A stretch of 29,340 nucleotides of DNA, from IMG/VR virus record IMGVR_UViG_3300021181_000032, positions 1 through 29,340 of that record. One strand, given 5' to 3'. The stretch's first letter is position 1. Every line of letters starts with the position of its first letter. Position numbers and translations under genes: made by a program. The notes below the pieces were generated by a model. That model searched no databases and was not told where the DNA came from. It saw only the letters and a program-made list of their open reading frames with translations. This DNA is from a virus. Positions 1,121-28,911 of this stretch are shown piece after piece.

Positions 1121-1135
1121 TTACTCTCAGAGTAT
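1121..1135. repeat. Dispersed palindrome copy 3, intergenic
   Basis: TTACTCTCAGAGTAT with a perfect core. It fills the gap between two genes: its right end touches the stop codon of the 1878-residue protein (1135-1137), and its left half supplies the GAGAG ribosome site for the ATG at 1119. Confidence 0.9.
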
Positions 1136-4100
1136 TATTGTGGTGGTATTGCCGGTTCTCCTATTGGTCGTCGAGCCCATCGTCCTATAGCAGCAGGGAC
1201 GGATGCGCTTTCTGTAGGCGCTTGCCCCGGTATCGCGCCAGTCGGATTTCTGAACCACTGCCACGCAGCAGGGAGCGGAGCAGTTGACTCAGTGGGTGCA
1301 GTAGCTGGGTCAAGCCCAAGCGGGTTCTGCGCTATACCTAAAGGTGTCTTACCTCTTAGTTTCTCCTCTATTGCCGCTGGTACCGACGCCGACTGTCCGG
1401 TGTAACCGGGGGGTGGTATAGCTGTGGCCGATGATGGCTCTTTGTCAGATGGCTTGTTCTTACCATATTCTGCTCTTGCCGCCATTGCCTGCTTAAAGCC
1501 TATAGGTGACATATAGAATGGGTCTTGCCCCGGTAGAGTAATTTTAATTCTATCTCTACCACTACTATCTTTATCATGCTCCCAGTTATCTTCTTTGAAC
1601 GCTTTACTCGTAACTAAGGTGTGCATATAATCAGCGGCAGAAGTGGGTGGCATACGGTTGTAGCGGGCAATGTCAGTTGTGCCATACCCAAGAGCATGTT
1701 GGTTCTCGGGTGAAGGGATAATTTTATTAAGCTGGTCTTGTTGCTTACTATCAATTGTAGATGCTACTCCTGGAGTAACCGGCGCAGAAGGCGGTGCAAA
1801 CGCATTGATTATAGCCTTATTCGACTCAAAATTTAGATTGCTCTCAGTTCCATCTTCAGCCCGTATGGGATGGAATGGGTCAAGTGGCTCGTCTGACTTC
1901 GCACGTTCTTTGCGTTGATCCTCTGACTGTTGCGCTGCCTGCCGCATTGCTTGTTGCTGCGCATCCAAGATTGCACGTCTGTTCTGTTGGTCTTGTGAAA
2001 ATCCTTCTCTTTGCATTTCAGACGTAGCCCTAAATTGTTCTGACTCTTTTGTTGCCGCGATCTTAGCCTTTTCTGTTGCATCATATTGTTTTGCCATGCG
2101 TTGTTCGTGCGCCATTTTCATTTGGTTATTCAAGTCAGCACGGCGAGAGCCTATCTCACCATTAATAATTGACTTGTTGTTCATATTATATTTGTTCCAC
2201 ATGTCCAGTCGTTCATGGTATTGCTGAAGTGCCATTTGGTCAAAGTGACGATCACCAGTCATTACTGGTTGTCTCGGGAAATCAATAACCTGATTGGTTC
2301 CCGGTATTACCGGATTACCCTTTTCGTATAATTGGTTTTCCATTTGCTTTCGATATTCAAGCAGATGTTTTTCCCCTTGTGACTGTATAGCATCAACTTC
2401 AGCTTCACCTGTTGGTGTCGTTGCTAGCTGTGCTGTTCCGTCACTTCCTCCCGCTACTTGAGTAGGAGCTTGATCAGACGTATCAGATGCGGCAGTGGGA
2501 ATTGCTGTGTCACCACCTCCTGATGAGTCATCACTCAACATGCTCATAGCTTGCTGTTGCTGTACCCTGTCTTGATAGTCGTCACCACCAAGTCCATACT
2601 CGCTACCCCAGTCGCCCTCACCCGAAGGCTGACTCCCAGAGTAATCTATGGGGTTGGGTTGAACAACAACGTCGCCACCGTCTTGGAACCTTGTGACTGC
2701 TCCACCACGTCGGTATTGTTTCGTGGGGGTAGTTGTCGGAGAAGTATATTTCGACAGGTGTTGACCCATCATCTTGAAGAAGCCTATACCTGATGCAAGA
2801 CCATGTGCTGCCATTTTTAGTTGGTCTGGCCCAACATTGCCAGCCCATATAGGGTGCCCCTTTAGGTTTGTTTGTTGAACATAGACTGAACCGTCATCGT
2901 TGACTTTTGCATTCATATGTTTTCCATCAGGCACATGATGATAACCCATTACAATGTTATCAACGGCGTCTTGTGTATCTCCTCTGTTAAGGGCATGAAC
3001 AGCTTTCTCACCATATTCTGCGCCCTTATTTCTTAGATGTAATAGGTACGACGCATTTGCTGAATTAGCATCGTCTTGATGCCCTGTTAATATTCCAAAC
3101 CTGTTGATACTCTCGATAGAAGCAAGATGACGCATATTGGGTGTCAGTATACCATTGGGGTCAACTGCTTTACCTATTGCATCTATATGATTATCATCCA
3201 TTGCTCCGTCGTTACCGTAGAACCCTTGTCGGTTCTGTGCTTCATCTTGTGAAGGTATTCCACCAGACGGTGCAAGACCATGATCCGCCAATAGAGACTT
3301 TGCGCCAGCCTGTATACCGTCTGTTGCTCCACGCGAAGGGTTGCCCCACCCATCCATGATTTGCGGTGTACCAAGCGGCAAGCCAGTCTCAGATGGACCT
3401 TCTTCGAGTAAACCTTGGAGATGGCGTTGCATCGTCATTTCACCTTGGTCGTCTTGACTACCGCCGTATTCAGAGTCATCACCCCCAGAGTAATCGTCTA
3501 CGGAACCGCCGTTCGCGAACCTTACTACCATGCCACCACGAGCATAACGTCCTACGACGCCACCCTTAGCGTGACCGCCGTGACCAACAACTGCTGGACT
3601 AAATTGACTACTACCAAATCCACCATAAGAACCAGCAACCGCTGTACCCGGTGCAACACCCATACCAGCAGGTGCTGGTCCCATATTAGAACCGTAACCA
3701 CCCGGCATTCCACCCGGACCTGTTGGACCCATCATATTAGCTGCGTTAGGTGCTGGTGCATTCTGATTTGCCGCAGCTAATGCTGTTGCAGGGTTGAACC
3801 CTGTTATACCAGTGCTCTGACCAGTCATTCCAAATGGTGCAGGACTTCCTAGTTCATTAGCCATATTCGCTGGCGATGGCGTACCGGGAGGAGCAGGCGT
3901 GCCTTGTATTCCTCGTATTCCCAGTGTTGGATTTGCTGCCGGATACCCCAAAGCTGTTGCAGGTGAAGTAGGCGCAGTCTCACCGGCAGGACCAAGTCCG
4001 GGATGTCCGGGCGACCCCGTGCCAAACGGTGCTGATGCATACATACTTATTTGAGCCGGTGTCAATGTATGTGTTGAAGGAACTCCTAATGCTGTTAGGT

Positions 4101-6771
4101 TACTTTTTAACGTTGCAAGTTGTGACGGAGTAAGAGCATTTAACGCACTTTGTGACGGACCAGTAACAACCGAACCAGATGCCCCAGAAGTGCCAAGCAT
4201 ACCCGGAACACCTGTAACATTCATCGCTTCTGCCGCAGTTACACCCCCACCGTGACCACCACCGCCAGTACTACCAGTCGATCCACCCCCACTACCTCCA
4301 CCTCCACCACCTCCACCACCTCCACCCCCACCACCAGTACCACCAGCTGCACCACCACTCATACCACCAGTACCCCCACGTTGCCCTGTCGCCGTAGCAG
4401 CACCTTGAGAAGCGGCAGTAGCGGCACCCTCGTCACCACTGGCAGGACCAATACTCATACCAAACCCAAACCCGGTTTGACCACCCGCAATACCACCTTG
4501 ACCTTGACCACCGGCAGCCTCACCACCGCCACTGCTTGGATCACCGCCAGCCGTTCCACCACCAGAAGTGCCATCGCCTGTACCGTCACCAGGACCGGGT
4601 CCACCACCACTCCCCGGACCACCGTTGTCTAAGAAGTTTACCATGCCACCAGCTTGAAAGCCCGGAGTTGGCACTGCTCCACCCTTACTCTGGAAGTAAG
4701 AGTCGTCCATACTAGACATATCTGGCGCACCACCCCCACCGCTGCCACCACTACCCCAATTACCCTTACCCCATAGTGAGTTCTTTGTACGCTTCATTCG
4801 GGCAGTGCTTGCTGTCGCCGCAGGCATACCGCCCATTGTTCCCATAGCACTACCCAGCATTGACTGTCCTTGCTGGACTTGCTGTTGAAGACCTTGTACT
4901 CCTTGATCTGAAGTAACAACAGGTGGAGGGATAGCAGGCGGTGGTTGAACAGAAATAGTTTGCGGCGACATAGCCGGGTTATTTGGATCAACATCACCAC
5001 CCTCTTGATAACCAAAACTAGAGTCATCAAGATAACCAGCGTCGTCAGGCGCAGATGGTTCAGCACCCGAATAATTCGAGTAATCAGCACCAGACGGAGG
5101 TACAACAGGTGTAGAAGGTGCAGACTGTGGAGGTGGTTGTTGTTGGCTTGTAGGAACGTTATACGATAACCACGTTGGATCATTCGGACTTACATGAGTA
5201 TTAATAAGCGGTGCGCCCATCATAGGCCCACCACCGCCACCACGACCACCACCCGATTGGTCTATATTAGGCCGCTCTATTAAGTTAGGTTGAGGTTGTG
5301 GTTGCGCTGCTGCCTGCCCCTGAGACGGAACAGCAGACACAGGCTGTGCTTGCCGTGTCGGTTGATTGGCGGCAGAAGCGGGAGGTTTTATTGGGACAAG
5401 ATTACCCTGCGCGTCACGGGTATAGCCATAGTCCCCAAAGCGTGGCGGTAGAGCAGGTGCGGTATCAGGGGGAACCGTTGACGGTCTTGCCTCAACAGGT
5501 GGTAATGGCTGTGGACCTTGCTGCGGACCACCATAAGGTGTAGTGCGTGGATCGACATTAGTCGTGTCTGTTGCTCTGGGAGTAACAGACGGACCTTGCT
5601 GCGGAGGTGGTACAGGCGTGCGACCACCATAAGGTTCAATTGGTGCAGAAGGTAAAACGTTACGTGGTGGATAAGCAGGGCCACGATCCGCACTTACTAT
5701 CGGTCCTGCTTCCGTTGGTATTTCCTGAGTAGGCGTTGCTGGCCCCGGTCCCGGCCCCTGACCAATATCCTTTGGAATAGCTGGACCGGGTGGCGCTGCG
5801 GGAACCGGCCCGCTCTCTGGTAATGGGAGTCGATGCTGTTGCTGTAGCGCAATACGCATAGCAAGAGCATCATCACCACCTGCAAGGTCAGCATCAGAAG
5901 GAGCAAGCTTCTTAGGCGTAGGCTTCTCTTCTACTGGTGTAGGCTTTTCAGCAGGCGCAGGTTTGGCTTTGGTCTTGGCCTCTTCAGGTTGAGTAGCCCC
6001 AATATCCTTTGGTAAAGATCTGTCATATGCCTTTGCCCTAGCAATATGTTCAGGGAATGCCGGTACACCGGGACCACCTTCTGTCATACCCTCATAATGA
6101 TGCTCCCATGATCGTGCAGCATCTTCAACATTATCTTGTTTTTTCAAATCATCTATAGCACGTCCATATGTAGGATTAGTAGCAATTTCATGCTGTATAA
6201 AACCCCAATTAGCTTCATAACTACTTGGGTCTAAATTATTAGCCGCAGCATATTTTTCAAATTCTGTACGGCGTGGACTATCCTTTGTATCAGTCCATTG
6301 TGCATACCCCCAACCACCACGTCCTCCTTCTGGTTTCCCCTCCTGTAAGTTCTTAAAATTACCACTCTCATAACCCATAACACCAACAGCACCAACTGCC
6401 TGTTCACGCGTTAGGCCGTATTTTTGCATCATATCGCCAGTAAGGCGTGCAGCAGTAGCGTTACCGCTTGTGCCATCATCCGCACCACCACCCCCGCCCT
6501 CACGCGTATGTGTGCCAGTCCCTTGTTGTCCTTGTATCCCTTGCCACCACTTAGCGTGTGACATCTCCATTTCTTGTGGTGAGCCTAAATCATATTGTCC
6601 ATTTGAATAATTAAAGAACTTGCCATTTTCACCTTGCCCTGACTGGCGCAGACGCATGGTATATAATTGCATTAACATTTGGTTCATTTGTCGCTGCATA
6701 CCGAGCTTCTGAGCGGCAAGGAATGCCTTAATGAAGCCGTCAGCGAAAGAGCCGCCGTAAAATCTAGCCAT
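1135..6771 (-). CDS. Giant virion protein with N-terminal phage-tail-lysozyme-like domain
   Basis: 1878 residues. The ATG at 6771 overlaps the preceding stop by one base (TAATG); a longer frame opens 31 codons upstream but would sit inside the previous gene. Residues about 105-255 resemble the phage tail lysozyme family: GYESGNF at 133-139 places Glu135 as the likely catalytic acid, followed by GGWGYAQWT at 152-160. The family cleaves peptidoglycan during genome entry. Then come long Pro/Gln/Gly-rich disordered segments, a poly-Gly run (about 820-850), three RGG-V-RF-GG-like basic/Gly motifs (about 700, 1065-1105, 1350-1400), a more globular part (about 1170-1340), and a Gln/Arg-rich coiled-coil region (about 1530-1650). 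By position it is an ejected internal protein with the role of T7 gp16. The lysozyme call is good; the rest is inference. Confidence 0.85.
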   Translation of the reverse strand: MARFYGGSFADGFIKAFLAAQKLGMQRQMNQMLMQLYTMRLRQSGQGENGKFFNYSNGQYDLGSPQEMEMSHAKWWQGIQGQQGTGTHTREGGGGGADDGTSGNATAARLTGDMMQKYGLTREQAVGAVGVMGYESGNFKNLQEGKPEGGRGGWGYAQWTDTKDSPRRTEFEKYAAANNLDPSSYEANWGFIQHEIATNPTYGRAIDDLKKQDNVEDAARSWEHHYEGMTEGGPGVPAFPEHIARAKAYDRSLPKDIGATQPEEAKTKAKPAPAEKPTPVEEKPTPKKLAPSDADLAGGDDALAMRIALQQQHRLPLPESGPVPAAPPGPAIPKDIGQGPGPGPATPTQEIPTEAGPIVSADRGPAYPPRNVLPSAPIEPYGGRTPVPPPQQGPSVTPRATDTTNVDPRTTPYGGPQQGPQPLPPVEARPSTVPPDTAPALPPRFGDYGYTRDAQGNLVPIKPPASAANQPTRQAQPVSAVPSQGQAAAQPQPQPNLIERPNIDQSGGGRGGGGGPMMGAPLINTHVSPNDPTWLSYNVPTSQQQPPPQSAPSTPVVPPSGADYSNYSGAEPSAPDDAGYLDDSSFGYQEGGDVDPNNPAMSPQTISVQPPPAIPPPVVTSDQGVQGLQQQVQQGQSMLGSAMGTMGGMPAATASTARMKRTKNSLWGKGNWGSGGSGGGGAPDMSSMDDSYFQSKGGAVPTPGFQAGGMVNFLDNGGPGSGGGPGPGDGTGDGTSGGGTAGGDPSSGGGEAAGGQGQGGIAGGQTGFGFGMSIGPASGDEGAATAASQGAATATGQRGGTGGMSGGAAGGTGGGGGGGGGGGGGGSGGGSTGSTGGGGHGGGVTAAEAMNVTGVPGMLGTSGASGSVVTGPSQSALNALTPSQLATLKSNLTALGVPSTHTLTPAQISMYASAPFGTGSPGHPGLGPAGETAPTSPATALGYPAANPTLGIRGIQGTPAPPGTPSPANMANELGSPAPFGMTGQSTGITGFNPATALAAANQNAPAPNAANMMGPTGPGGMPGGYGSNMGPAPAGMGVAPGTAVAGSYGGFGSSQFSPAVVGHGGHAKGGVVGRYARGGMVVRFANGGSVDDYSGGDDSEYGGSQDDQGEMTMQRHLQGLLEEGPSETGLPLGTPQIMDGWGNPSRGATDGIQAGAKSLLADHGLAPSGGIPSQDEAQNRQGFYGNDGAMDDNHIDAIGKAVDPNGILTPNMRHLASIESINRFGILTGHQDDANSANASYLLHLRNKGAEYGEKAVHALNRGDTQDAVDNIVMGYHHVPDGKHMNAKVNDDGSVYVQQTNLKGHPIWAGNVGPDQLKMAAHGLASGIGFFKMMGQHLSKYTSPTTTPTKQYRRGGAVTRFQDGGDVVVQPNPIDYSGSQPSGEGDWGSEYGLGGDDYQDRVQQQQAMSMLSDDSSGGGDTAIPTAASDTSDQAPTQVAGGSDGTAQLATTPTGEAEVDAIQSQGEKHLLEYRKQMENQLYEKGNPVIPGTNQVIDFPRQPVMTGDRHFDQMALQQYHERLDMWNKYNMNNKSIINGEIGSRRADLNNQMKMAHEQRMAKQYDATEKAKIAATKESEQFRATSEMQREGFSQDQQNRRAILDAQQQAMRQAAQQSEDQRKERAKSDEPLDPFHPIRAEDGTESNLNFESNKAIINAFAPPSAPVTPGVASTIDSKQQDQLNKIIPSPENQHALGYGTTDIARYNRMPPTSAADYMHTLVTSKAFKEDNWEHDKDSSGRDRIKITLPGQDPFYMSPIGFKQAMAARAEYGKNKPSDKEPSSATAIPPPGYTGQSASVPAAIEEKLRGKTPLGIAQNPLGLDPATAPTESTAPLPAAWQWFRNPTGAIPGQAPTESASVPAAIGRWARRPIGEPAIPPQ
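1764..1778. repeat. Dispersed palindrome copy 4
   Basis: CTACTCCTGGAGTAA, perfect core, inside the giant virion gene and read as VTPGVAS. Confidence 0.85.
2630..2644. repeat. Dispersed palindrome copy 5
   Basis: TGACTCCCAGAGTAA, perfect core, inside the giant virion gene and read as DYSGSQ. Confidence 0.85.
3479..3493. repeat. Dispersed palindrome copy 6
   Basis: TCACCCCCAGAGTAA, one change in the core, inside the giant virion gene and read as DDYSGGD. Confidence 0.7.
4685..4699. repeat. Dispersed palindrome copy 7, degenerate
   Basis: TTACTCTGGAAGTAA. Only the outer five bases of each arm pair; inside the giant virion gene, read as SYFQSK. Confidence 0.45.
5571..5585. repeat. Dispersed palindrome copy 8
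   Basis: TTGCTCTGGGAGTAA, one change in the left arm, inside the giant virion gene and read as VTPRAT. Confidence 0.7.
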
Positions 6772-8114
6772 TATCCTACCGCCCTTCTCTGGAGCAGGCG
6801 TTGTGTCGGGATGGCACCACCACTCTGTGAGCCATAGGTCGTCGATGGGCCACCACCGTTCCAATTCTTATTTACTCCGGGGGTAATTGGCCCACCATAT
6901 TGAACCCCACGCGCGTGAGGGATAGCAGGATTAGACGCACCCGGTCTACTGACAAACGTCGGTCGTGCTGGCGGCGCATAACCGCGCTCGCCACCAATGT
7001 CGTTACGCTGGCTCGCCATCTGTCTTTCTTGCCGTGCCCTGTCAATGCCAGCATAGAGTTTCTTCTGGCCTTCCCACTCCACAACATCTTTAGGCCATAC
7101 GAACTCACCCACAGTCAACCTTGCCGGAACGTCATCAGTCTCTTGCCCACCTGTTGGTGACGCTTCAGTTGGGATAGCCCCTCCCGGTGTACCATTCGGT
7201 GGTACCACACTTTGAACTGTTGCACCGGGACTAGCTGTGACATTGCCCGGATTACCTTGAGGCGGAATAGCAGGTCCACCCTCCTGCAACATTGATGTAA
7301 TAGATGGATTACCCAAAGCCGCCCCACCTAAACCACCAGCAAGTGCGCCAAACCCAGCGCTCTGCATTGCACCGACTTGTGCGTAACCTAATTGTGACTG
7401 GTTATAACCGTTCACTGCATTAACATAAGTATTCATATTCGATGCGCCAGTATTAAACCAATTTGATGGTGCAGTTAATGCTGACGAACCAGTAGAAATA
7501 TTACTCGCACCCACCCCTGCTGCTGCCGACCCAGCCCCTACACCCGTGCTAGCAAGTCCAGCAGTTGTATTAGGTAGACCACGTCCAGTATTAACAACGC
7601 CAGCCTCAAGACCAAGACCTTGTAACTTCGTAGCCTGTACTGCTGACGTACCAGCACCCGCTTCCGCTGCGGCCTGTGTCGTGCGAGCACCAATGTCAAG
7701 ACCGGCAAAGCGGGTACTGCCGGGGTTAATACCAAAACCCTCCAATTGCTCTTGCGCAGAAGACCGTTGAGCCTCTGACGCTTCGCTGACGTTTGTCATT
7801 GCAGCGCCAGCGTTTATAGATTGTTGTGCTGGCGATGCCCACTGTTGAGCTTGTGTAGCGTACTGTTGTTCGAGGGGTTGATAAGTTGTTTGATAGAGTT
7901 GCTCTTGTTCTTGTGCAAATTGTGCTGCTTGTTGTTGAGAAGCAATATCAGAAGTCATAATTTGCTGAACATAAGGTTGTTCAGCGTTCCATTGCTGTTT
8001 GGCCCAATCAAGTTGCTGTGTACCAAGTGAATATGCTTGATTAGCCGCCTGAGCAGACGCTAACGCCTGAAACATACCAGACGGATCAGCGGAACCACCT
8101 TTTTGACCACCCAT
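6771..8114 (-). CDS. Probable internal virion protein, Ala/Gln/Gly-rich
   Basis: 447 residues from ATG 8114, chosen because GGAGAG lies 5-6 nt upstream; a TTG four codons earlier lacks this. The upstream stop ends one base away (TGAGATG). The N-terminal 130 residues are Gln/Ala-rich and probably helical (ASAQAANQAYSLGTQQLD). The middle is Gly/Ala/Ser-rich. Residues about 326-349 hold DDVPARLTVGEFVWPKDVV, a motif I associate with large caudoviral structural proteins, where it reads approximately D-x-VPA-x-L-(T/S)-x-GEFV. It lies between the GNAT-like gene and the lysozyme giant, the place of gp14/gp15 in T7, so it is probably a channel-forming ejection protein. The palindrome at 6872-6886 lies in its 3' part. 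Confidence 0.82.
   Translation of the reverse strand: MGGQKGGSADPSGMFQALASAQAANQAYSLGTQQLDWAKQQWNAEQPYVQQIMTSDIASQQQAAQFAQEQEQLYQTTYQPLEQQYATQAQQWASPAQQSINAGAAMTNVSEASEAQRSSAQEQLEGFGINPGSTRFAGLDIGARTTQAAAEAGAGTSAVQATKLQGLGLEAGVVNTGRGLPNTTAGLASTGVGAGSAAAGVGASNISTGSSALTAPSNWFNTGASNMNTYVNAVNGYNQSQLGYAQVGAMQSAGFGALAGGLGGAALGNPSITSMLQEGGPAIPPQGNPGNVTASPGATVQSVVPPNGTPGGAIPTEASPTGGQETDDVPARLTVGEFVWPKDVVEWEGQKKLYAGIDRARQERQMASQRNDIGGERGYAPPARPTFVSRPGASNPAIPHARGVQYGGPITPGVNKNWNGGGPSTTYGSQSGGAIPTQRLLQRRAVG
6872..6886. repeat. Dispersed palindrome copy 9
   Basis: TTACTCCGGGGGTAA, one change in the core, inside the 447-residue gene and read as ITPGVN. Confidence 0.75.
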
Positions 8115-8115
8115 C

Positions 8116-8613
8116 TCACTCTCCAATTTTACTCTGAGAGTATTCGTGTACTTGTATTATATTTGTTTTTTCAATAGGTGCAAATTCTACCTTTGGTGGT
8201 TTTTTACCTGTATTAACAAATTTACAATCTTCTTCATACATGCCCATAACCACTAAGCCTTCCCCACCCGGAAATACGTCGTCAATAATTGCTTCTTCTT
8301 TGAAACCAATATGCATATTAAATTTACGTGCTCGCCTGTTACCCTCTGGTACACGTCCAAATAGTTTCTTTACTTTACGTACTTTAAACACATAATTGAA
8401 TACTGCCCAAAGTATTTCTGGTTGTGCCCCATTTGGCATAAAGATAGCAGAATGTATCTCCATGCTATGACCATTATCCTCCATTAACAATACTCCACTC
8501 ATAAGGCGATCCTTGCTGTCGTAACACGCAATAGAATATATCTTAGCCCCAAGATTAACTTTTGCTTGGTCAGCTATTAGTTTAATAGCGTGTGCTTCAT
8601 TTATTCTTATCAT
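8116..8613 (-). CDS. GNAT-fold virion protein, T7 gp13-like
   Basis: 165 residues. The ATG overlaps the fibre-gene stop by four bases (ATGA), typical of translational coupling. The segment NRRARKFNMHIGFKEE at 92-107 matches the GNAT acetyltransferase pattern N-x-x-A-x-x-F-x-x-x-x-GF, and the preceding beta-rich part (SGVLLMEDNG, SAIFMPNG) fits the fold. T7 gp13, an internal virion protein, has the same general GNAT-like look and the same place after the nozzle gene and before the large ejection proteins. Whether this copy acetylates anything is unknown; a structural or assembly role is more likely. Its last codons contain the palindrome at 8129-8143 (EYSQSK). Confidence 0.8.
   Translation of the reverse strand: MIRINEAHAIKLIADQAKVNLGAKIYSIACYDSKDRLMSGVLLMEDNGHSMEIHSAIFMPNGAQPEILWAVFNYVFKVRKVKKLFGRVPEGNRRARKFNMHIGFKEEAIIDDVFPGGEGLVVMGMYEEDCKFVNTGKKPPKVEFAPIEKTNIIQVHEYSQSKIGE
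8129..8143. repeat. Dispersed palindrome copy 10
   Basis: TTACTCTGAGAGTAT, perfect core, in the final codons of the GNAT-like gene (EYSQSK), 15 nt before the next gene's start codon. Confidence 0.85.
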
Positions 8614-9326
8614 GTCACTCGTATCATTAGAACTGAACCATTACGATATACTCCGCCAACTGGTACGCCTGCCGTCGCCGCCGCTGTATCGTCAGTAGCA
8701 TTAATTGGTGATAAAGCAATTGTTGGAGCTACACTCAAAGTCAAAACACCAGTAGCACGATTAACATTTAAAGGTCTACTAAGTACAGCTCCAGTATCAT
8801 CAATAGAAATCAAAGTAAAGTTACTCCCAGAGTTAGAACCACTTTCTGGGATTTGATCACCTAATTGTAACTGCCAACGCCAACTTACTGCACCGGGCGA
8901 AGTCCCTGTTCCACCAAGAATTCCCCGTTGGTTTCCTGATGTAGCATAAAGTCCTATTAAATTACTACCCTGAAAGTAAGTTGGTCCGGTTATTACACCG
9001 CCAGTCAACGGTAAGACCGCACCCCATGTCGCGTTAACACGACCATAATAACCACCATCAATTGGCGCATCAGGAAAACTAGGTGGACCTACTGGACCTA
9101 TTGGACCTTCTGGACCCGGTAAACCTGGTGGACCAGTTGGTATATTTTTAATTGTCTCTTGTAATGCAAAAATTGATGCACCTTGAAGGTTACTAGATTT
9201 GGCTACGCCCTGAGAGTTGACAATCAATATGTTAACCGCTTGCTTAAGCGCAGCCACAGCCGCAGCAATACTCGGAAGAGTAGCACCCGGATCAGGAATA
9301 GTAATATATGGCGAATTACTAGGCAT
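8610..9326 (-). CDS. Tail fibre-like protein with collagen-like segment
   Basis: 238 residues, one base after the nozzle-like gene (TAACATG). Residues 1-62 are Ala-rich and probably helical, suited to trimer formation or attachment to the virion. Residues 65-82 (GPPGLPGPEGPIGPVGPP) form six Gly-X-Y triplets, the collagen-like repeat common in phage fibres. A beta-rich part follows, with LPLTGGVITGPTYF at 105-118, a phrase typical of fibre shafts, and the C-terminal sequence PVGGVYRNGSVLMIRVT that often ends fibre tips. It is short for a complete receptor-binding fibre, so it may be a side fibre or spike accessory. The palindrome at 8821-8835 is read here as SNSGSN. Confidence 0.82.
   Translation of the reverse strand: MPSNSPYITIPDPGATLPSIAAAVAALKQAVNILIVNSQGVAKSSNLQGASIFALQETIKNIPTGPPGLPGPEGPIGPVGPPSFPDAPIDGGYYGRVNATWGAVLPLTGGVITGPTYFQGSNLIGLYATSGNQRGILGGTGTSPGAVSWRWQLQLGDQIPESGSNSGSNFTLISIDDTGAVLSRPLNVNRATGVLTLSVAPTIALSPINATDDTAAATAGVPVGGVYRNGSVLMIRVT
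8821..8835. repeat. Dispersed palindrome copy 11
   Basis: TTACTCCCAGAGTTA, perfect core, inside the fibre gene and read as SNSGSN. Confidence 0.8.
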
Positions 9327-9327: not shown

Positions 9328-11142
9328 TTACGCCTTTGCCAAGTCTTTTACACTACCAGCCATTTTCATCATATATACGTATACCTGCCCTTCCAATTGT
9401 ATTTCCCAAAACGTTGCCTTCTGTCCATCGGGTATTAACAGAACTTCACCATCTGTTATTATTTCTCGAACAACAACCGGATTACCATTAGCATAAATTC
9501 GAGCGATCAAATATTGTTTAGTAGGATCAAATACTTGAGATTGGTTGTTATTTCGAGTTTGAGGAGTAGGAGGTGTAATTGTCACTTCTGGTGGCACATT
9601 AAAGTGAATTTTAAGTGCCTTCATATCCTCGGGTTTTGGTAAACGAAACTTCTTTGACTTCCATACCCATGAAAGTAATATACCGCCCGATGGTGCAAAC
9701 CACCACCGAACGTCAGTGTTATGAACTAAAAATAACTGCCCTGATAACTCGTCCCAATATAGATTAACAATCTTTTCACTTGGCTCTAATAGAGCCTGTA
9801 TATAAACAGCTGGAACGTTTTTTTCCAATTGATCCAATATAACTCCATTAGGAACAATCTCTGATGAAGATCCTTTAAAGAATGCTGTATAAGACAGACC
9901 AGTCCGCCCTGCTGCCCATGTGTTAGGAGTTAAAGAATTAAAAAATTCCCGCTCCATGAACATCTGTGTTACGTTTATGGTGCCAGATGTATTAAGTAAT
10001 ATTAATCCATTAGGTGAGGCATAATACGTACCTTCACCTGCCGCAAAGACCGATCCACGCCCAATACATGGTTCGTTCGCTGTTACCTTACCAATCGTCA
10101 TAGTATCAGGCGTCGTGCCCGTTGCAATAAATGGTTGACCTTCTGTCAATACGCTTAACGAACTCCCAATAGCATTCAATGCAACAGTAGGATAGTCTAC
10201 CGTTAACGCATAAGTAGCAGGCCACGAATGAGGTAAAAATGCCGTACTAAACCATATTTCACGTTCATTTGTCCATCCCGCCATAATACCATTTGCCATC
10301 ATTACGACGCCCTGCAAACCGGCAGGAGGGCCAGTATAAACTGTCGAGTTTAATACTGTGTTGTTTGTGATTTGATCAGCAGTTTGGGAGTCGTTATAGA
10401 CAATTGGTGCTCCGGGAGTGGTAATAGGTATGTTAGTAGTATTAACTTGGAAGAACTCAGCATTGCCAGAGCTATCTGTAACGGTGCGATAGATACGGAT
10501 ACCAGAGAGGTTTCTATTAAGTAAGTTGGCACTACTCGGAGAGTAAACCGTAATAGTCCATGTCGTACCGGGGCCGGGGTCACCACTTGCGGTAGTCGGT
10601 GGCGACGGCGCTCCCTCTTCTCCATATGCACTGACATACGTATAAATATAAGAACGAGTCTCTTGTGGATTAGGACTAACGACCGGAGCAGGGACGACAC
10701 CGGGAGCGGTAGCAGGTACAGGGATACCCAAAAGATAATATGGGCCGGGGGGAGTAGCTCGAAGATTACTTAGGGGAGCGTAAAATGGTGTAGAGAACCA
10801 TCCGCTACCATCGTCAATAAATTGGTCAGATGGAAAGAAGTAATACCTAGCGTATTGATCCCCAACCACGGGGCTACGAATAACGTTCATGTATGGGTCA
10901 GGAAATTCCAGCCAAAGAGAATTTGTCCAATCCTCAAGGTTCTCGTTAAGTGGGATACGATAAACCTGTTTGGTTGTAAGAGGACGTATTAGAGTATAAA
11001 CTGGTTGAGAAGCACGAAGTCCTCTTATAGCACCTTTAAAGAGCCATGTATTCTGAGCAAATTGGGCGTAGTTGTCCGGTAGCAAAGTTGGGTCACGTAC
11101 AGGCAACATACCTGCAAAATCTGCAACACCTAATGTTGTCAT
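9328..11142 (-). CDS. Tail nozzle-like virion protein (T7 gp12-like role)
   Basis: 604 residues. The N-terminus (FAGMLPVRDPTLLPDNYAQFA, then IRGLRASQPVYTL) has the layout of podovirus tail tubular protein B/nozzle proteins, which open with a Gly/Pro-rich peptide, an N-x-W/x-x-x-G turn and the phrase 'GLR.P'. A further block near residues 165-185 (RSYIYTYVSAYGEEGAPSPP) is one I recognise from many uncharacterised podophage virion proteins. The central part (WTNEREIWFSTAFLPHSWP, then SVFAAGEGTYYASPNGLIL) looks like propeller blades. It follows the adaptor genes and precedes the fibre and GNAT-like genes, as gp12 does in T7. The nozzle assignment is by analogy; membership in a conserved phage virion family is firmer. 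Confidence 0.75.
   Translation of the reverse strand: MTTLGVADFAGMLPVRDPTLLPDNYAQFAQNTWLFKGAIRGLRASQPVYTLIRPLTTKQVYRIPLNENLEDWTNSLWLEFPDPYMNVIRSPVVGDQYARYYFFPSDQFIDDGSGWFSTPFYAPLSNLRATPPGPYYLLGIPVPATAPGVVPAPVVSPNPQETRSYIYTYVSAYGEEGAPSPPTTASGDPGPGTTWTITVYSPSSANLLNRNLSGIRIYRTVTDSSGNAEFFQVNTTNIPITTPGAPIVYNDSQTADQITNNTVLNSTVYTGPPAGLQGVVMMANGIMAGWTNEREIWFSTAFLPHSWPATYALTVDYPTVALNAIGSSLSVLTEGQPFIATGTTPDTMTIGKVTANEPCIGRGSVFAAGEGTYYASPNGLILLNTSGTINVTQMFMEREFFNSLTPNTWAAGRTGLSYTAFFKGSSSEIVPNGVILDQLEKNVPAVYIQALLEPSEKIVNLYWDELSGQLFLVHNTDVRWWFAPSGGILLSWVWKSKKFRLPKPEDMKALKIHFNVPPEVTITPPTPQTRNNNQSQVFDPTKQYLIARIYANGNPVVVREIITDGEVLLIPDGQKATFWEIQLEGQVYVYMMKMAGSVKDLAKA
10532..10546. repeat. Dispersed palindrome copy 12
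   Basis: CTACTCGGAGAGTAA, inside the nozzle-like gene and read as VYSPSS. One centre base departs from the consensus. Confidence 0.7.
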
Positions 11143-11451: not shown

Positions 11452-11466
11452 TTACTCCCAGAGTGT
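11452..11466. repeat. Dispersed palindrome copy 13, intergenic
   Basis: TTACTCCCAGAGTGT, perfect core, between the spike stop (11473-11475) and the ATG at 11447, for which it provides the GGGAG ribosome site. Confidence 0.9.
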
Positions 11467-16803: not shown

Positions 16804-16805
16804 CA

Positions 16806-16820
16806 TTACTCCAAGAGTAT
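16806..16820. repeat. Dispersed palindrome copy 15, intergenic
   Basis: TTACTCCAAGAGTAT, perfect core. It fills the gap exactly: its right end shares a base with the stop codon at 16820-16822 and its left half contains the GGAG for the next gene. Confidence 0.9.
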
Positions 16821-17230: not shown

Positions 17231-17245
17231 TTACTCTAAGAGTGT
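17231..17245. repeat. Dispersed palindrome copy 16, intergenic
   Basis: TTACTCTAAGAGTGT, perfect core, between the capsid terminator and the ribosome site of the adaptor gene. On the minus strand it directly follows the terminator T-tract. Confidence 0.88.
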
Positions 17246-18377: not shown

Positions 18378-19547
18378 TTAGCGGCGAACGCGACCATCCC
18401 TCAGAGCTTCTTGGATTTGACTTTCGATCAGACGATATTCGTCGTCACGACCAGCGTACTTTCCGCGTGTAACATCTGAATAGAATTGCGCGATCTCCGC
18501 ACCTGTTACTATAGGCTTATCGGGGGGAGCTTGTGTCTGCCCCGGTCGCGCTCTGCCCGGTGCTGCAAGACTTACAAGATCGACAGCCGGGGTGGTTGCA
18601 GGGTTACTCCTAGAGTGAGTCGCGTTCCCACTCCCAGAGCTTTCTGCCCCGTTGCCCGGCTGTGATCTTCCAGTCTGTACAGGACCAGAAGCAGCCAGTT
18701 CCGCCTGATACCTCTCAAATGTCGCCACAACCCTGGAAGCTTCTCCACGGTCAAAAGCGTGCATCAAGATTGCTTTGCGTTGGGTTCCATACATGGGGTC
18801 AATCTGAGCCAGCCATGTTTTGAACCCTTCGTCGTCATTCTGTGCTTCCCAATCAGGTACTCGCTCTTTAAGCGCCTGATAAACCTGCGAACGTGCGTCT
18901 GCCGCAACGTGTGTTTGCACGCCACTTAAAGACTGACGCACTTGTTGAATTTCACCACGTACTGGTGCTAGTTCTGCCTCTGCCACTTCACGGGCAGCGC
19001 GACGAGCCATATCAACGAGTTCTTTACTCCATTCCTTCTCATCTTCAGGAGTAACATATCTCTTTGGAACAAAATTATTAACTGACTGTTGAGAGGTGGC
19101 AGGAGAGGATACCGTAGCAAGGAGCCGCTGCATTTCTCCGACACGGTTGACAAGGTCACGGTTTTCCTGTGACGCTTTTTCAAAGCGCCCAACCATGGCC
19201 CTAAATTCACTCTCAGAGTAATGACGATCTTGTTCTTGACCATTACCCTGACCATTACCCCGCTGTTGGGGGGCAGGTGCGGGCGCAGGTTGAGGTGAAG
19301 GTGATGCATTCCTCAATATAGGATTTGGTTGCGCGCGGGCGGGCTGAGCCGGTAATTCTGGAATTGGTGGTGTAGGAGAACCAATGTCAGCGAACACCAT
19401 CTTCCCCGGTTGTCCGCCACCAATCCGTTGCTGCTCTGATAACTCGTTCGCTCGTGCAGCCGCACGCCTGACAGCTTCAGGAAGATGAGCGTTCGGGTCA
19501 GGTGTATTCGTACGTACGGTTCTTGTTTGTTCGTTTGGATTTGCCAT
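18378..19547 (-). CDS. Capsid scaffold protein
   Basis: 389 residues, one base after the preceding gene. Long Pro/Ala/Gln-rich low-complexity stretches (about 55-105 and 285-330) flank a central coiled-coil part (about 110-250; RFEKASQENRDLVNRVGEMQ). The C-terminal basic segment (AQFYSDVTRGKYAGRDDE near 343-360, ending DGRVRR) is the kind that binds coat protein. Position immediately before the capsid gene, the high helical content and the basic tail are standard for podophage scaffolds. Two palindrome relatives lie in the low-complexity tail and one near residue 110. Confidence 0.85.
   Translation of the reverse strand: MANPNEQTRTVRTNTPDPNAHLPEAVRRAAARANELSEQQRIGGGQPGKMVFADIGSPTPPIPELPAQPARAQPNPILRNASPSPQPAPAPAPQQRGNGQGNGQEQDRHYSESEFRAMVGRFEKASQENRDLVNRVGEMQRLLATVSSPATSQQSVNNFVPKRYVTPEDEKEWSKELVDMARRAAREVAEAELAPVRGEIQQVRQSLSGVQTHVAADARSQVYQALKERVPDWEAQNDDEGFKTWLAQIDPMYGTQRKAILMHAFDRGEASRVVATFERYQAELAASGPVQTGRSQPGNGAESSGSGNATHSRSNPATTPAVDLVSLAAPGRARPGQTQAPPDKPIVTGAEIAQFYSDVTRGKYAGRDDEYRLIESQIQEALRDGRVRR
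18604..18618. repeat. Dispersed palindrome copy 17
   Basis: TTACTCCTAGAGTGA, perfect core, in the scaffold gene and read as THSRSN. A decayed copy, CACTCCCAGAGC, lies at 18629-18640 (SSGSGN). Confidence 0.85.
19207..19221. repeat. Dispersed palindrome copy 18
   Basis: TCACTCTCAGAGTAA, perfect core, in the scaffold gene and read as HYSESE. Confidence 0.85.
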
Positions 19548-21228: not shown

Positions 21229-21243
21229 TTACTCCCAGAGTGA
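21229..21243. repeat. Dispersed palindrome copy 19, intergenic
   Basis: TTACTCCCAGAGTGA, perfect core, just upstream of ATG 21223 and supplying its GGGAG. It abuts the separate 16-bp palindrome at 21243. Confidence 0.9.
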
Positions 21244-22714: not shown

Positions 22715-22728
22715 TTTACTCTCCTTCT

Positions 22729-25029
22729 TCATTCTCCCGCTTGGGGTGTCGTTACTCCGGGGGTATTACCCCCACCTCCCGGTGGCATTGCGCCCGCCGG
22801 TGGACCTTTACTGGCGGGTCCAACAACGTTTAGTTGGGGACCACCTTTAGCTGGGCGCGGTGCTTGCTGACCTTGAGCCTGCGCCGCTCCATGCTGACCA
22901 GCCAATTGCGTATTCGCAGCCGCCTCCTGCCCTTGAGCAGCCCCGGTTTGCGCAGCCGCTTGAGCCTTCTGCTGATTGTTAAGTTCCTCTTCGGTGGGGA
23001 CGATATCTGCGCCGGGAATATTGAGATGGTCCGCAACCTGTTTAAGGACAACTGCACGTCCCTTCGGTCCAATAATCGACATGTCAATCGGATTAGCTGT
23101 GATTTGTAGAAACTCAAGTTCCCGCTGTATCTGGGCTTCCTTAGCCATGGCGACGTTAACACCGAGTATTCTAACTTCTTCTTGCCCATCAAGCAGACCT
23201 GAAGTATCTGTAAGCATAATCATATCAAGAAGGTTTGTTATCAACCCTTCTACTATATCTCTATCAATGTTCGATGCGACGGTTTGAAGTATCTTCGCAG
23301 CGTTCTGCATGAGCATAGCAAGCCCAGAAGCAGTACGACCAGTCGGTCCCGCTCCGGGCATACCTTGCACAAACTTAGGAATAGCGGACATCTCGTCCGC
23401 CAACGTACTAAACGCAGTATAGACAGCCATTAACTCTTGGGAATTACTTTGCGGTTGCCAGAATGAAATCGCAGGTTGAGTATTATTACCAAATGGATCA
23501 GACTTGATGTGCCAACGTTTCCAAGGATACAGTTCCTCACCGTCCTCACCGTCTGCCAATCGGTCGTCGCTAATAGTAACTTGTGGTCCACTCGCAATGC
23601 TGAGATTATTAACAAGTGCTCGTAGAGTGGCATTCGCCACGGTACTAATATCAGTGAGCAAATCCGGGAGTCCGTTACCAACGACAGTGCCCGGCACTTT
23701 TTCAAAAGAGGTAAGGTAATAAATATGGCGTTTTCGCGGCGATGGGGAAAGTTGAACTTTGATAACATATCGCCCTATCAGCCATGCTTCAATAAAATAA
23801 TCACGCGTCGGATCAGGTATCATTGGAGCAGGGAAGCCTGCCTCTAAAATCTGCTTACCCTGAGCCCACCCACTGAATTGTAAACATGCGATCAGTCCTG
23901 ATTGGTTAAATCGAGGGTTCTCTCGGGACTCAAGTATTGCTCGCTCTGCGTCGGTCTGGTCCCAATTATCAACAAGACCTCCACGACCATAATCGTCCAG
24001 AACAGCTCTGACAGCTTGTTGATCAAATCCGGGGAGGTCGAGTAAATCATTTAACTCTTTTCGTGTAACTCGTGATCTTTCAATGACATTTGCATCAGCT
24101 ATATTTGCAACCCCCGGTGTCCAGTAGATATCAAATGGACTAACACGTTCCCAACACAAATAAGGTTTCTGCGTTGTGAGCGGATTACTCTTGAGAGTAT
24201 TAGGGTCACGCTGCCATTCTACGTTGGTTTTAATTCTAACTACTGGCCCTTTAATAACTCCGTATGGGAAAATTGGTAGATCAACTAGGAACTCTGCGAA
24301 TGCTGTATAGAACCCGCCTTGTGCAAGAATTTCTTGAATTTTATCTTCCGCAATTTTTGCCTTCTTCGCCGCATTTCTCTTTGCCGCATCACGCGCTGCC
24401 GTTTCGAGTTCGGTAAATCTATCTCGTATGGCATTAGCATCAGGTAATGGTTCAGGGGGTGGTGGCGCTGGTGGTTGTTGTGCTTGAGCAACTGCGGGCT
24501 GTTGCGCGTTTTGAGTGTGCATCGCGGCCACACCCGCCGCATGCGCCTGCTGAGCATGTAACGCTTGTAAATGACCTTGAACTGCCCCTTGTATTTCTGA
24601 CTCTACAAGTTTCTGTATGGACTGGTATATCTCAGGTGGTACGGGGGGATCGGGCGAAGGCTCAAGCCCCCACGGTCGTTCAGTCCCAAGATAAACATCT
24701 CTCAAGAGGGACGTAGTCCCTCGCGCTTTCATCGCAACGATGCGCGCGTATACCTGTGATCCTCCGAATTTTCTTATCTCTTGTAGAATGTCTTCTTCGT
24801 AGACACCATTAAACGCGCGAAGTGCTCTCAAAAGTCTATGTGCCCAGCCGGCGCTCGTGTTATCTCGATGCCGCCGCATCAATGTAAATTGGTCATTTAT
24901 AAAGCCGGCTAGGCCAGTTAATTCTGCAACGGGGGGAAGCTGCGCCTGCGCACGGATAGCGGCTTCGCGCTTAACCTGTGCGTCTGTATCTGCGCCGCCT
25001 ACAACGCGTAAGACCCCACCAAGAGGCAC
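22729..25029 (-). CDS. Portal protein
   Basis: 766 residues. It starts at GTG 25029, the only credible start, with no Shine-Dalgarno. The core matches podophage portal proteins: an N-terminal part with RLLRALRAFNGVYEEDILQE, a wing section with KPYLCWERVSPFDIYWTPG near 300, then crown-proximal parts with TSFEKVPGTVVGNGLPDLL and TGRTASGLAMLMQNAAKIL near 610. An Ala/Gln/Pro-rich insertion (about 150-210) and C-terminal Gln-rich tail are low-complexity. The portal is the dodecameric ring through which DNA enters. The palindrome at 24185-24200 lies within it, and another lies in its last codons. Confidence 0.9.
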   Translation of the reverse strand: MPLGGVLRVVGGADTDAQVKREAAIRAQAQLPPVAELTGLAGFINDQFTLMRRHRDNTSAGWAHRLLRALRAFNGVYEEDILQEIRKFGGSQVYARIVAMKARGTTSLLRDVYLGTERPWGLEPSPDPPVPPEIYQSIQKLVESEIQGAVQGHLQALHAQQAHAAGVAAMHTQNAQQPAVAQAQQPPAPPPPEPLPDANAIRDRFTELETAARDAAKRNAAKKAKIAEDKIQEILAQGGFYTAFAEFLVDLPIFPYGVIKGPVVRIKTNVEWQRDPNTLKSNPLTTQKPYLCWERVSPFDIYWTPGVANIADANVIERSRVTRKELNDLLDLPGFDQQAVRAVLDDYGRGGLVDNWDQTDAERAILESRENPRFNQSGLIACLQFSGWAQGKQILEAGFPAPMIPDPTRDYFIEAWLIGRYVIKVQLSPSPRKRHIYYLTSFEKVPGTVVGNGLPDLLTDISTVANATLRALVNNLSIASGPQVTISDDRLADGEDGEELYPWKRWHIKSDPFGNNTQPAISFWQPQSNSQELMAVYTAFSTLADEMSAIPKFVQGMPGAGPTGRTASGLAMLMQNAAKILQTVASNIDRDIVEGLITNLLDMIMLTDTSGLLDGQEEVRILGVNVAMAKEAQIQRELEFLQITANPIDMSIIGPKGRAVVLKQVADHLNIPGADIVPTEEELNNQQKAQAAAQTGAAQGQEAAANTQLAGQHGAAQAQGQQAPRPAKGGPQLNVVGPASKGPPAGAMPPGGGGNTPGVTTPQAGE
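22752..22766. repeat. Dispersed palindrome copy 20
   Basis: TTACTCCGGGGGTAT, one change in the core, in the last codons of the portal gene and read as NTPGVTT. Confidence 0.75.
24185..24200. repeat. Dispersed palindrome copy 21, 16-bp variant
   Basis: TTACTCTTGAGAGTAT, with a centre one base longer than the consensus, in the portal gene and read as NTLKSN. Confidence 0.7.
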
Positions 25030-25307: not shown

Positions 25308-25910
25308 ATGCCAATCACAGAGCACAAGATAAGGTACCTAGTAACAGAAATCGCCAAAGACGTGGTAGAGATAGACAATATACTGTTTCATCTCAATATT
25401 ACGCGTGAGGAATACCTAAGACTTTCTGGTACTCGCGCTTTCAAGGAAGCGCTCGTAGTCGCGCAGACTGAATGGCAGGGCGCAACAAATACCCATAAGC
25501 GAGTTAAACTCAAGGCTGCGGCCATCGTCGAAGAACTGATTATGAAAGTATTCTTTGCTTGCACCAAAGACGACCAACCACTGAACTCTAAAGTGAAAGC
25601 ACTTGAGACCATTGCAAAAATCGGTGGTCTAGGCGCGCTTGAACCAGCGGCAGGCACAAGGGAAGGTACAATGGGGAATATTTTTAATCTACAGATAAAT
25701 TACTCCGAGGGTAATACAGAGCAAGTGCAATTGGGTGGCCCGATTGTAGATGTTGATGAGTACTCCGAGAGTAACGAAGACGAGATCAGCGATAATATCC
25801 AAGAACATGTCAACGAGAATAAAGTCTCTAACGCTCAAACTTCCAATATCCAATTTCATGGTTCATCCCTTTCGTCTGTATTTGCTAGCGATGACTTGGA
25901 ACCATTATAA
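25308..25910 (+). CDS. Terminase small subunit-like protein
   Basis: 200 residues, the only complete gene on the plus strand here. AGAGAG lies about 10 nt before the ATG. Residues about 12-55 (KDVVEIDNILFHLNITREEY) look like a helix-turn-helix, followed by a helical region (KLKAAAIVEELIMKVFFAC) and KVKALETIAKIGGLG, a phrase common in phage small terminases. The acidic C-terminal tail (150-200) would contact the large subunit. The small terminase recognises the packaging site. Two palindromes are read in the tail as NYSEGN and EYSESN. Its last 55 bases overlap the convergent gene. The call rests on the helix layout and the nearby large terminase. Confidence 0.72.
   Translation: MPITEHKIRYLVTEIAKDVVEIDNILFHLNITREEYLRLSGTRAFKEALVVAQTEWQGATNTHKRVKLKAAAIVEELIMKVFFACTKDDQPLNSKVKALETIAKIGGLGALEPAAGTREGTMGNIFNLQINYSEGNTEQVQLGGPIVDVDEYSESNEDEISDNIQEHVNENKVSNAQTSNIQFHGSSLSSVFASDDLEPL
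25700..25714. repeat. Dispersed palindrome copy 23
   Basis: TTACTCCGAGGGTAA, one change in the core, in the small-terminase-like gene and read as NYSEGN. Confidence 0.78.
25760..25774. repeat. Dispersed palindrome copy 24
   Basis: GTACTCCGAGAGTAA, perfect core, only 60 bp from copy 23 (centre to centre), in the small-terminase-like gene and read as EYSESN. This is the closest pair in the window. Confidence 0.85.
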
Positions 25911-26473: not shown

Positions 26474-26487
26474 GTTACTCTCCCTAT

Positions 26488-26547: not shown

Positions 26548-26861
26548 TACTCGTCCTCATCTGTAAGTGTAGGGTCCGGCATGACAGAGCCTTGTGTATA
26601 TCGCTCATAGTTCAAGCGAAATGCTAATGTTGAGACCGCAGTGGTTAAACTATGTGACCAGCCATCAGTAAATGATAAAATTGTTTCAGTCGATCTACCC
26701 ATATCAGAGTCAGACTCATTATTCACAATAGCAAGAGCAAGACCCATCGCTTGTATTTTACCTGCCTTTGCATCGCGTAATGCTTCACGCAACAATATTA
26801 TAATGCGCTCATTTGGAGCCCACTTGGTCTCAGCTACTCTAAGAGTAATAGGGGTAGTCAT
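26547..26861 (-). CDS. Small conserved-looking protein, unknown
   Basis: 104 residues, one base after the preceding gene (TAACATG). It contains a helix (NERIIILLREALRDAKAGKI), a strand region (AMGLALAIVNNESD) and a C-terminal helix after DGWSHSLTTAV. This order resembles small unnamed phage proteins near terminase genes. The palindrome at 26834-26848 forms codons 5-9 (ITLRV). Confidence 0.68.
   Translation of the reverse strand: MTTPITLRVAETKWAPNERIIILLREALRDAKAGKIQAMGLALAIVNNESDSDMGRSTETILSFTDGWSHSLTTAVSTLAFRLNYERYTQGSVMPDPTLTDEDE
26834..26848. repeat. Dispersed palindrome copy 25
   Basis: CTACTCTAAGAGTAA, perfect core, in codons 5-9 of the 104-residue gene (ITLRV), so close enough to the start to act on initiation. 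Confidence 0.85.
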
Positions 26862-27055: not shown

Positions 27056-28609
27056 TCAAGTCCAAGCCTTACTATTAAAGGGTGCGCGTCGTGCATGTCG
27101 CTCACGTGCTCTTTTAGTATAACCGTAGGCGTACGAGTATGCTTCCGCGCTCGACGCGGTCAAGCACGCATACTGTAACGCGTCCTGCACGTGAGACCAT
27201 GGTGTATCTTTTTCGGGGAGCGGTCTATCGGTCTCATATTTATTTTTAGGGTAACGGTACGCACCCAATAACCCTTCGACTAATAACGGACACTCATCCT
27301 CGTCAATTAATATTTTACCCTCACCCCTAACATTCCCAAGGAAGAACCCTTCCACTGCACCAACGCGTCTATCAATGTCGTTGCTTACTGCCGGAACATT
27401 AGGTAGACCCAAATGTGACAATAGGTTAAACTCATTCATCTCAAACAAACTAGACCGTGCAATACCGGCAGGGTCGCCAACAATAATGAACCTACGTCCG
27501 GCAAAGCGAGGTGTGGCGAGCGCAGGTTTAAGTTGTTCCTCAATGTGTTGACGCAGTCCCATCCCAGAAGTCGGTATCTCTTTTAGAACTAACAACTGAC
27601 CTCTATGTGTGAGTTGTGTTATAACGGCTCCGGGGTTCCGCCCAAAGTCTTGACCAATAATAAGCATTCGGTCGTCCACAGGCTCAAGGCCACGACGTAT
27701 ATGAAAATCATAAATAAAGCTCTCTCCATATACGGCAGAGCCAGAGGGATCTTTTCCGAAATCTGCGTCCACATAACGACGAATATAATCAGGGGTACCA
27801 GTCGCGACAAGCCGCTCATAATATTTGCGTCCCTGCGCTCGACGTATTTCTAAGTTCTTTTGTATTTGTTCTGGGCTTACTCCGGGAGTAGGGTCGATAG
27901 GAAGTATAACCGTGTCAGGCGTTTGCTCTAAGTGCTCAAGGTTCTCAGCGTTAGGCTCACGCCCTCCCGGTTGCCGAAATATCTCCCACTCACGCACTTC
28001 ACCCAATAGCCCACGTTTTATGAACTTAGCCCACGGTGCCATCTCGGGAGGCATATTGGTATCAGCCATTATGCCTTTCCACGTAGGCACACCCAACTCG
28101 TCGTTAGGGTATCGCCCACATCGCCCCGCGATGTCACTAATCAAGTCTATGTCGATCTCAATACACTCATTAATAAAAGCTGCCGTAAGGTTGGTACTGA
28201 GAAGGCGGCGCTTATCTTCTGGTTCGTCAAGAGGAACAAAAAGCCATTCCGAGTGAATATCACCCTCACGAAAATAAAGCGTAGATTCGGACACCCTCCA
28301 ATCAGCAATAAGGGCGTATCGCGATAATACGTCCTTAAGCACAGTATCCTTAAGTTGTTTGAGAGTTTGTCGGATGATCGCATAGCGTGTGAACCTTCTT
28401 GGGTTGTTAGGACGTACAGGGTCCTGAAACGCAGGCATCTGCTGTTTCATTCTCCGAGTGAGATCGACTAGTGAGCCGGTAGTTTTGCCAGACCCAACGG
28501 GTCCACATAGTAAACGCCCGAATGATTGTGACTGCATGAACCTACTAATAGTAGGGGGCGCATTATAAATAAACGTTCTTTCAACTCCGCTATATTGATG
28601 AGGTTTCAT
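27056..28609 (-). CDS. terL: Terminase large subunit
   Basis: 517 residues. The ATPase half has Walker A GPVGSGKTT at 36-44 and Walker B-like AAFINE at 143-148, with Glu148 as the catalytic acid. The nuclease half has QDFG (Asp321), VGDPAG (Asp379) and QDALQY (Asp476), the three acidic positions of the RNase H-like terminase nuclease. It pumps DNA through the portal and cuts it. The ribosome site before ATG 28609 is weak. The gene shares a minus-strand operon with two small genes upstream. One palindrome at 27877-27891 is read as TPGVSP. Confidence 0.95.
   Translation of the reverse strand: MKPHQYSGVERTFIYNAPPTISRFMQSQSFGRLLCGPVGSGKTTGSLVDLTRRMKQQMPAFQDPVRPNNPRRFTRYAIIRQTLKQLKDTVLKDVLSRYALIADWRVSESTLYFREGDIHSEWLFVPLDEPEDKRRLLSTNLTAAFINECIEIDIDLISDIAGRCGRYPNDELGVPTWKGIMADTNMPPEMAPWAKFIKRGLLGEVREWEIFRQPGGREPNAENLEHLEQTPDTVILPIDPTPGVSPEQIQKNLEIRRAQGRKYYERLVATGTPDYIRRYVDADFGKDPSGSAVYGESFIYDFHIRRGLEPVDDRMLIIGQDFGRNPGAVITQLTHRGQLLVLKEIPTSGMGLRQHIEEQLKPALATPRFAGRRFIIVGDPAGIARSSLFEMNEFNLLSHLGLPNVPAVSNDIDRRVGAVEGFFLGNVRGEGKILIDEDECPLLVEGLLGAYRYPKNKYETDRPLPEKDTPWSHVQDALQYACLTASSAEAYSYAYGYTKRARERHARRAPFNSKAWT
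27877..27891. repeat. Dispersed palindrome copy 26
   Basis: TTACTCCGGGAGTAG, perfect core, in the linker region of the large terminase (residues 240-244, TPGV). Confidence 0.85.
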
Positions 28610-28889: not shown

Positions 28890-28896
28890 GACGGTA

Positions 28897-28911
28897 TTAC
28901 TCCAAGGGTAA
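28897..28911. repeat. Dispersed palindrome copy 27, at a gene junction
   Basis: TTACTCCAAGGGTAA. On the minus strand it encodes the last three residues and the TAA stop of the zinc-ribbon gene, and its GGAG serves the next gene. Confidence 0.82.

Follow-up and report, generated by a model that had tools for sequence, protein, structure and literature searches.

We identified a short, imperfect DNA palindrome that is dispersed through the genomes of a family of soil phages and is fused to gene junctions, where it overlaps the stop codon of one gene and the ribosome-binding site of the next. This fusion, which the earlier note had claimed from one contig, proved to be far beyond chance and family-wide. 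We consider it probable (roughly 0.6), judging from sequence, that the palindromes form a genome-wide array of putative DNA operators for a sequence-specific protein that binds as a dimer and is most likely encoded by the phage.

The window, which is the whole stretch of DNA that was analysed and an entire 29,340-bp viral contig, carries virion genes, almost all of them on the minus strand, for the portal, major capsid, terminase, and internal virion proteins. Its nearest isolates are Rhizobium phages of the RHph_TM27A group, with 50% identity in the portal and 65% in the capsid. No known RNA family or tRNA was found in it. Two other repeats were observed: short, GGT-rich, tandem-like repeats at 4242-4380 within a 1909-aa virion gene, glycine-rich on the sense strand, and a 34-bp element present in two copies (21544-21577 and 26488-26521; 91% identical), each just upstream of a start. 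The latter has an inner inverted repeat, GCGTTTA...TAAACGC, and is possibly a promoter, a terminator, or another operator.

The element itself is an imperfect 15-bp dyad, TTACTC-YNR-GAGTAA, in which Y and R stand either side of one central base. A position weight search found 27 copies in the window (Table 1), about two thirds of them inside genes; the non-coding fraction is 0.29, against 0.10 expected. With a 3-base gap, 11 of the 12 arm positions match in 20 places and 10 of 12 in five, while all 12 match in none; the window has no perfect palindrome of this type. Gaps other than 3 bases give at most three places with 11/12 arm matches, and the dyad is thus gap-specific and far above background. 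Of the 25 best copies, 24 combine a perfect arm with one that departs from it at one or two positions. This half-site asymmetry, a perfect arm paired with a single-mismatch arm, is real in TTACTC-type genomes; at junctions, stop-codon use explains part of it.

Table 1. Dyad copies and half-sites in the window (arm match, identical arm positions out of 12; SD, Shine-Dalgarno sequence).
Position	Strand	Arm match	Context
120..134		10/12	in gene; TTACCCCCAGAGTAG
390..404		11/12	in gene; TTACTCCCGGAGTAC
1121..1135			junction copy; touches stop of gene 1135-6864; GAGAG is SD of gene starting 1119; sense ATACTCTGAGAGTAAAATG
1764..1778		11/12	in gene
2630..2644		11/12	in gene
3479..3493		10/12	in gene
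4685..4699		11/12	in gene
5571..5585		11/12	in gene
6872..6886		11/12	8 bp upstream of TTG at 6864; possible junction copy (by position)
8129..8143		11/12	3 bp upstream of TTG at 8126; possible junction copy (by position)
8821..8835		11/12	in gene
8965..8979		9/12	weak copy, in gene
10407..10421			weak copy, in gene
10532..10546		11/12	in gene
11452..11466			junction copy; GGGAG is SD of gene starting 11447
15093..15107		11/12	in gene
16806..16820			junction copy; touches stop of gene 16820-17215; GGAG is SD of gene starting near 16803-16806
17231..17245		10/12	intergenic, upstream of start at 17215
18604..18618		11/12	in gene; aligned by a G001 dyad copy
19207..19221		11/12	in gene
21229..21243			junction copy; GGGAG is SD of gene starting 21223
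22716..22724	-		half-site only, sense GGAGAGTAA; just upstream of start near 22714
22752..22766		10/12	in portal gene
25700..25714		11/12	between minus-strand genes, inside + strand ORF 25308-25910
25760..25774		11/12	between minus-strand genes, inside + strand ORF 25308-25910
26475..26483	-		half-site only, sense GGAGAGTAA; just upstream of ATG at 26473
26834..26848		11/12	in gene
27877..27891		11/12	in terL; aligned by a G001 dyad copy
28897..28911			junction copy; contains TAA of gene 28897-29151 and GGAG SD of gene starting 28889

The individual junctions described in the earlier note are as it had read them. With the minus strand as the coding strand, the copies at 1121, 16806, and 28897 share bases with the TAA that ends the upstream gene (1135-1137, 16820-16822, and 28897-28899) and their GAGAG or GGAG precedes the ATG of the next; those at 11452 and 21229 supply a GGGAG 12-13 nt before an ATG, and the half-sites lie directly upstream of the starts at 26473 and 22714. 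Five window copies lie 9-15 nt upstream of a start codon, against 0.3 expected from random relocation. The note had also claimed that copies in coding regions are read almost only in two phases, the third being seen only where a gene ends. This description stands for the window, in which phases 1 and 2 are used within genes and phase 0 at 28897 only, and the pooled 15-bp sites fall 22/51/81 in phases 0/1/2; the bias is mostly stop avoidance.

A de novo search for inverted repeats, given no motif, recovered a dispersed dyad in all ten related contigs and in the isolated Rhizobium phage RHph_TM27A; with the window, all 12 genomes contain one. Every near-complete relative examined within the clade, RHph_TM27A included, has its own version, at about 0.5-1.3 sites per kb and about 30-76 sites per near-complete contig. 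The consensus varies by lineage (TTACTC-N3, TTACTC-N4, TTACCC-N3, GTTACCT-N4, and TTAACTGC-N2), and most versions share a common core of TTAC followed after 7-8 bp by GTAA. Further contigs (G020, G021, G023-G028, and G041) agree with the TTAC-type result. In one of these, G023 (L371-L374), frame breaks interrupt each of the portal, polymerase, helicase, and candidate-binder genes (see below), apparently through errors in sequencing or assembly. A scan for perfect GTTACCT-N4-AGGTAAC returned mostly single chance matches, and the contigs dense in matches all encode the same portal family.

Beyond the clade, the more distant relatives G013-G015 seem to carry a dyad of another type, ACTAC-N-GTAGT, at lower density; CACTAC-N-GTAGTG occurs 17 times in G013, 11 times in G015 (all within 40-55 kb), and six times in L052, while shuffled sequences give 0-1 copies. 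G018 (L213-L215) contains dense GCGGCCCGGGCCGC-like words at 45.1-47.5 kb, many of them 33 bp apart, apparently a repeat within a coding region and not a dispersed dyad.

The site table assembled from the 12 genomes holds 611 sites: 40 join a stop codon to the SD of the next gene, 53 overlap a stop only, 87 an SD only, 301 lie in genes, and 130 are elsewhere in intergenic DNA. Placement is tightly tied to gene ends. Sites centred 10-15 nt before a start number 92, a 28-fold excess over the 3.3 expected, and those centred 5-10 nt after a stop number 66, against 3.9 expected. Depending on the genome, the share of sites no more than 20 bp from a gene end is 22-53% (6-11% expected), and the non-coding fraction is 0.29-0.46 (about 0.10 expected); in none of the 12 are the copies placed at random relative to starts and stops. 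The left-arm variant TAACTC, which yields a stop codon, is found in 25 of 32 stop-plus-SD sites vs 37 of 252 in genes. The gene caller used favours SDs in choosing starts, but the junction result is unchanged with the GenBank annotation of RHph_TM27A, in which 53% of sites are within 20 bp of a gene end against 11% expected. The junction and SD/stop enrichment was repeated in contigs found by the motif alone.

Selection maintains the sites, and conservation is seen at orthologous positions. Between G004 and G005, 36 of 41 aligned sites are kept as sites, with identity of 0.86 vs 0.77 in the flanks; between G007 and G008, 23 of 30 are kept (0.86 vs 0.79). In the G003/G007 pair, site identity is no higher than that of the flanks.

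The position of so many right arms at SDs raises the question of whether the element acts on the transcript. The earlier note had proposed that either a bound protein or a short RNA hairpin would hide the ribosome site and so set expression of the downstream gene. The 28-fold excess before starts is what such translational control, by a hairpin or by a protein site on RNA, would produce, and SD accessibility is indeed 0.29, compared with 0.37 when the left arm is shuffled (lower in 91 of 127). Against it, mismatches in the transcript sense are G-U in 125 cases and A-C in 128, and at junctions 22 vs 61, whereas pairing kept by G-U or compensatory changes would be expected of an SD-sequestering hairpin; pairing on the transcript is not maintained in this way. 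Within genes G-U mismatches are somewhat in surplus (103 vs 67 A-C), which could stem from coding constraint. Hairpins at SD sites are no stronger than those in genes (-3.4 vs -4.0 kcal/mol), the stems in the window are weak (-0.1 to -2.9 kcal/mol), and about half of all sites are inside genes, where control of a downstream start has no obvious role. We rejected the hairpin because G-U is not favoured over A-C and the window stems are weak, and we regard translational control through RNA as improbable. Of the two possibilities in the note, the bound protein is plausible, given that selection acts on the sites and that they behave like dyads in DNA. The modest drop in accessibility leaves a weak translational effect possible.

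The dyad of G009 bears on the same point: it has no GGAG, yet it still favours junctions, with 12 of 37 sites after stop codons and 4 of 37 at SD distance. This placement suggests that the overlap with SDs follows the letters of the motif more than a translational function. Taken together, the observations speak for a DNA-level dyad whose fit to stop codons and SDs is incidental to its letters.

A DNA-level element that is dispersed and often upstream of genes could also be a promoter for a phage RNA polymerase, in the manner of T7 or N4, and the distant relative Aeromonas phage 1233 has both a dyad array and a T7-like polymerase. The same PF00940 search that detects the polymerase of that phage has no match in 10 genomes of the set, and on this basis T7-like promoters were rejected. 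A weak PHROG match of the first window gene to a virion RNA polymerase, a possible reader of N4-like hairpin promoters, did not hold up; the corresponding RHph_TM27A protein, EVB29_085, has matches to pyrophosphatase and DarB-like families. Moreover, a promoter centred about 12 nt before a start codon would leave no leader or SD, and half of the sites are inside genes. We consider promoters extremely improbable. In Aeromonas phage 1233 itself (L113 / W04, OR359403), we counted 23 copies of AAA-WCGGACA-NN-TGTCCGW-TTT, 83% of them non-coding, whose central bases change along the genome, GG predominating first and CC later; these dyads may be promoters, because this phage has a T7-like RNA polymerase.

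The gene content of the family is relevant to what an array of bound sites might do. No match to PF00589 (tyrosine integrase) or PF02195 (ParB_N) was found in 10 genomes, and a portal scan of a bacterial and archaeal genome collection yielded two MAG contigs only. With the integrase search covering the tyrosine type, the phages appear to be lytic, as Corndog and its relatives are. A ParB/parS centromere was rejected on the same evidence, ParB_N being detected in controls.

An array could alternatively be architectural, with a nucleoid-like protein, or one acting in packaging or segregation, organising the replicating or packaged DNA and with junctions occupied merely for their low coding constraint. 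The sites spread over the whole genome at about one per kb, more evenly than random in most genomes, and they occur in the virion-gene operon as well as in the early region; evidence of lysogeny was not found. All of this would suit such a role, but the preference for tandem junctions and for SDs and stops exceeds simple avoidance of coding DNA, the search that covered ParB_N found none, and site density is raised around the early control region. We judge a purely architectural array unlikely.

We favour instead the operator array, in which a dimeric protein, most likely encoded by the phage, would bind the dyads as dispersed operators. At junctions the right arm doubles as an SD, and the T-to-A variant of the left arm, TAACTC, as a stop codon. 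Junctions would be used because coding constraint is lowest there and because GAG/GGAG and TAA suit the motif. The bound protein may act on transcription within operons, as a stoperator-like roadblock or by tuning, or may organise the genome, and would probably not act through an RNA hairpin. Stoperator-like silencing lacks an obvious purpose here, since there is no sign of lysogeny. A more ambitious version is doubtful: that this lytic podovirus family has a rapidly re-specifying operator array read by a new class of helical DNA-binding protein, with single palindromes acting as operator, stop codon, and SD together, so that occupancy by one protein tunes transcription and translation across almost every operon.

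A shared-gene profile singled out a candidate for the binder, a family of 230-390 aa encoded between terL and the ATPase gene (EVB29_028, QIG66858.1, in RHph_TM27A). The family is found in the TTAC-type genomes that cover this interval and was not found in G014, G015, and G017, which have no TTAC-type dyads although their sequences span the interval and most other core genes are shared. Its apparent absence from G027 and G041 arises because these contigs end between terL and the ATPase gene. Dyads are denser near the candidate gene, with 96 within 2.5 kb vs about 55 expected (10 genomes summed). Structure prediction gives a helical protein (mean pLDDT 76); it has no recognised DNA-binding domain, and its fold matches nothing in the PDB. 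From these sequence-derived features, and with less confidence than for the array itself, we propose this novel helical protein as the best candidate binder, a lead and not a proof; its link to the motif follows presence and absence along one phylogeny and may reflect a single evolutionary event. The interval between the ATPase and terL genes encodes, in G014 (L200:6891-7988) and in G015 (L205:13014-14060), a protein of similar length (about 350 aa) with no detectable similarity to the candidate, a hint that a switch of motif may go with a change of this protein.

Two other families were considered as binders. The G004_039 family, of 76 aa, is distributed over the genomes in a similar way but was rejected, as it shows no DNA-binding signature. 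The G004_030 family, encoded beside the DNA polymerase gene, matches Cro/CI-type helix-turn-helix (HTH) proteins, has a winged-helix neighbour, and is conserved in seven motif-bearing genomes, and the dyads could be operators for it. The family occurs, however, in many contigs without such a dyad and was not found in G010 or RHph_TM27A, both of which bear dyads; its divergence also conflicts with motif class, G005 being nearer to G007/G008 than to G004. We therefore rejected it, and consider it very unlikely that the dyads are its operators.

Dispersed dyads in lytic phages have been a puzzle since the repeats of Corndog were described. The present family offers many related genomes with a drifting motif and a candidate narrowed to one gene position, and binding and function are directly testable in the isolated Rhizobium phages. 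If the array is regulatory, operator arrays that span a genome would extend beyond the temperate mycobacteriophages. A single palindrome as putative operator, stop codon, and SD would also clearly illustrate how several signals can share one set of bases.

Among published systems, the closest is that of the cluster O mycobacteriophages, such as Corndog, in which each genome carries a 17-bp dyad, TGTTCGG-N3-CCGAACA, more than 30 times, with many copies between genes and about a third within them; these phages have no integrase or parAB, and a dimeric DNA-binding protein has been predicted (PMC4351075). The arrays here likewise consist of short-spaced inverted arms in about 30 or more copies (32-69 sites in the near-complete genomes), partly in genes, with arms of 6-7 bp and a spacer of 3-4 bp compared with 7 and 3 bp in Corndog. 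The Corndog arms are nearly invariant, whereas here most sites have an arm mismatch and the consensus changes between lineages; the Corndog repeats are also reported to have no close link to start sites, in contrast to the sites 10-15 nt before starts, and the many on stops and SDs, in this family. The host phylum and virion type also differ.

The stoperators of cluster A phages (L5, Trixie) are asymmetric sites, oriented with transcription and bound by the immunity repressor of temperate phages (PMC6550527, PMC9283540). They resemble the present sites in being many and dispersed and in a motif that drifts with lineage, as cluster A repressor sites do, but the sites here are dyads, in phages in which lysogeny genes were not found. 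The start-associated sequences (SAS) of cluster K are an asymmetric 13-bp word present in 11-19 copies, in non-structural genes only and virtually always at starts (PMC3203893). These too place a repeat with AGGAG at the ribosome-binding site, sometimes with the upstream stop inside, but the dyad here is genome-wide, about half in genes, and about 20% of sites fit SD placement. The operators of bacteriophage lambda are pseudo-symmetric sites of odd length, with one half near consensus and the other deviating. The dyads here share these features, but lambda has a handful of sites at promoters and these genomes have dozens, mostly away from promoters. The array thus combines features of cluster O dyads, stoperators, and SAS, and fits the full definition of none.
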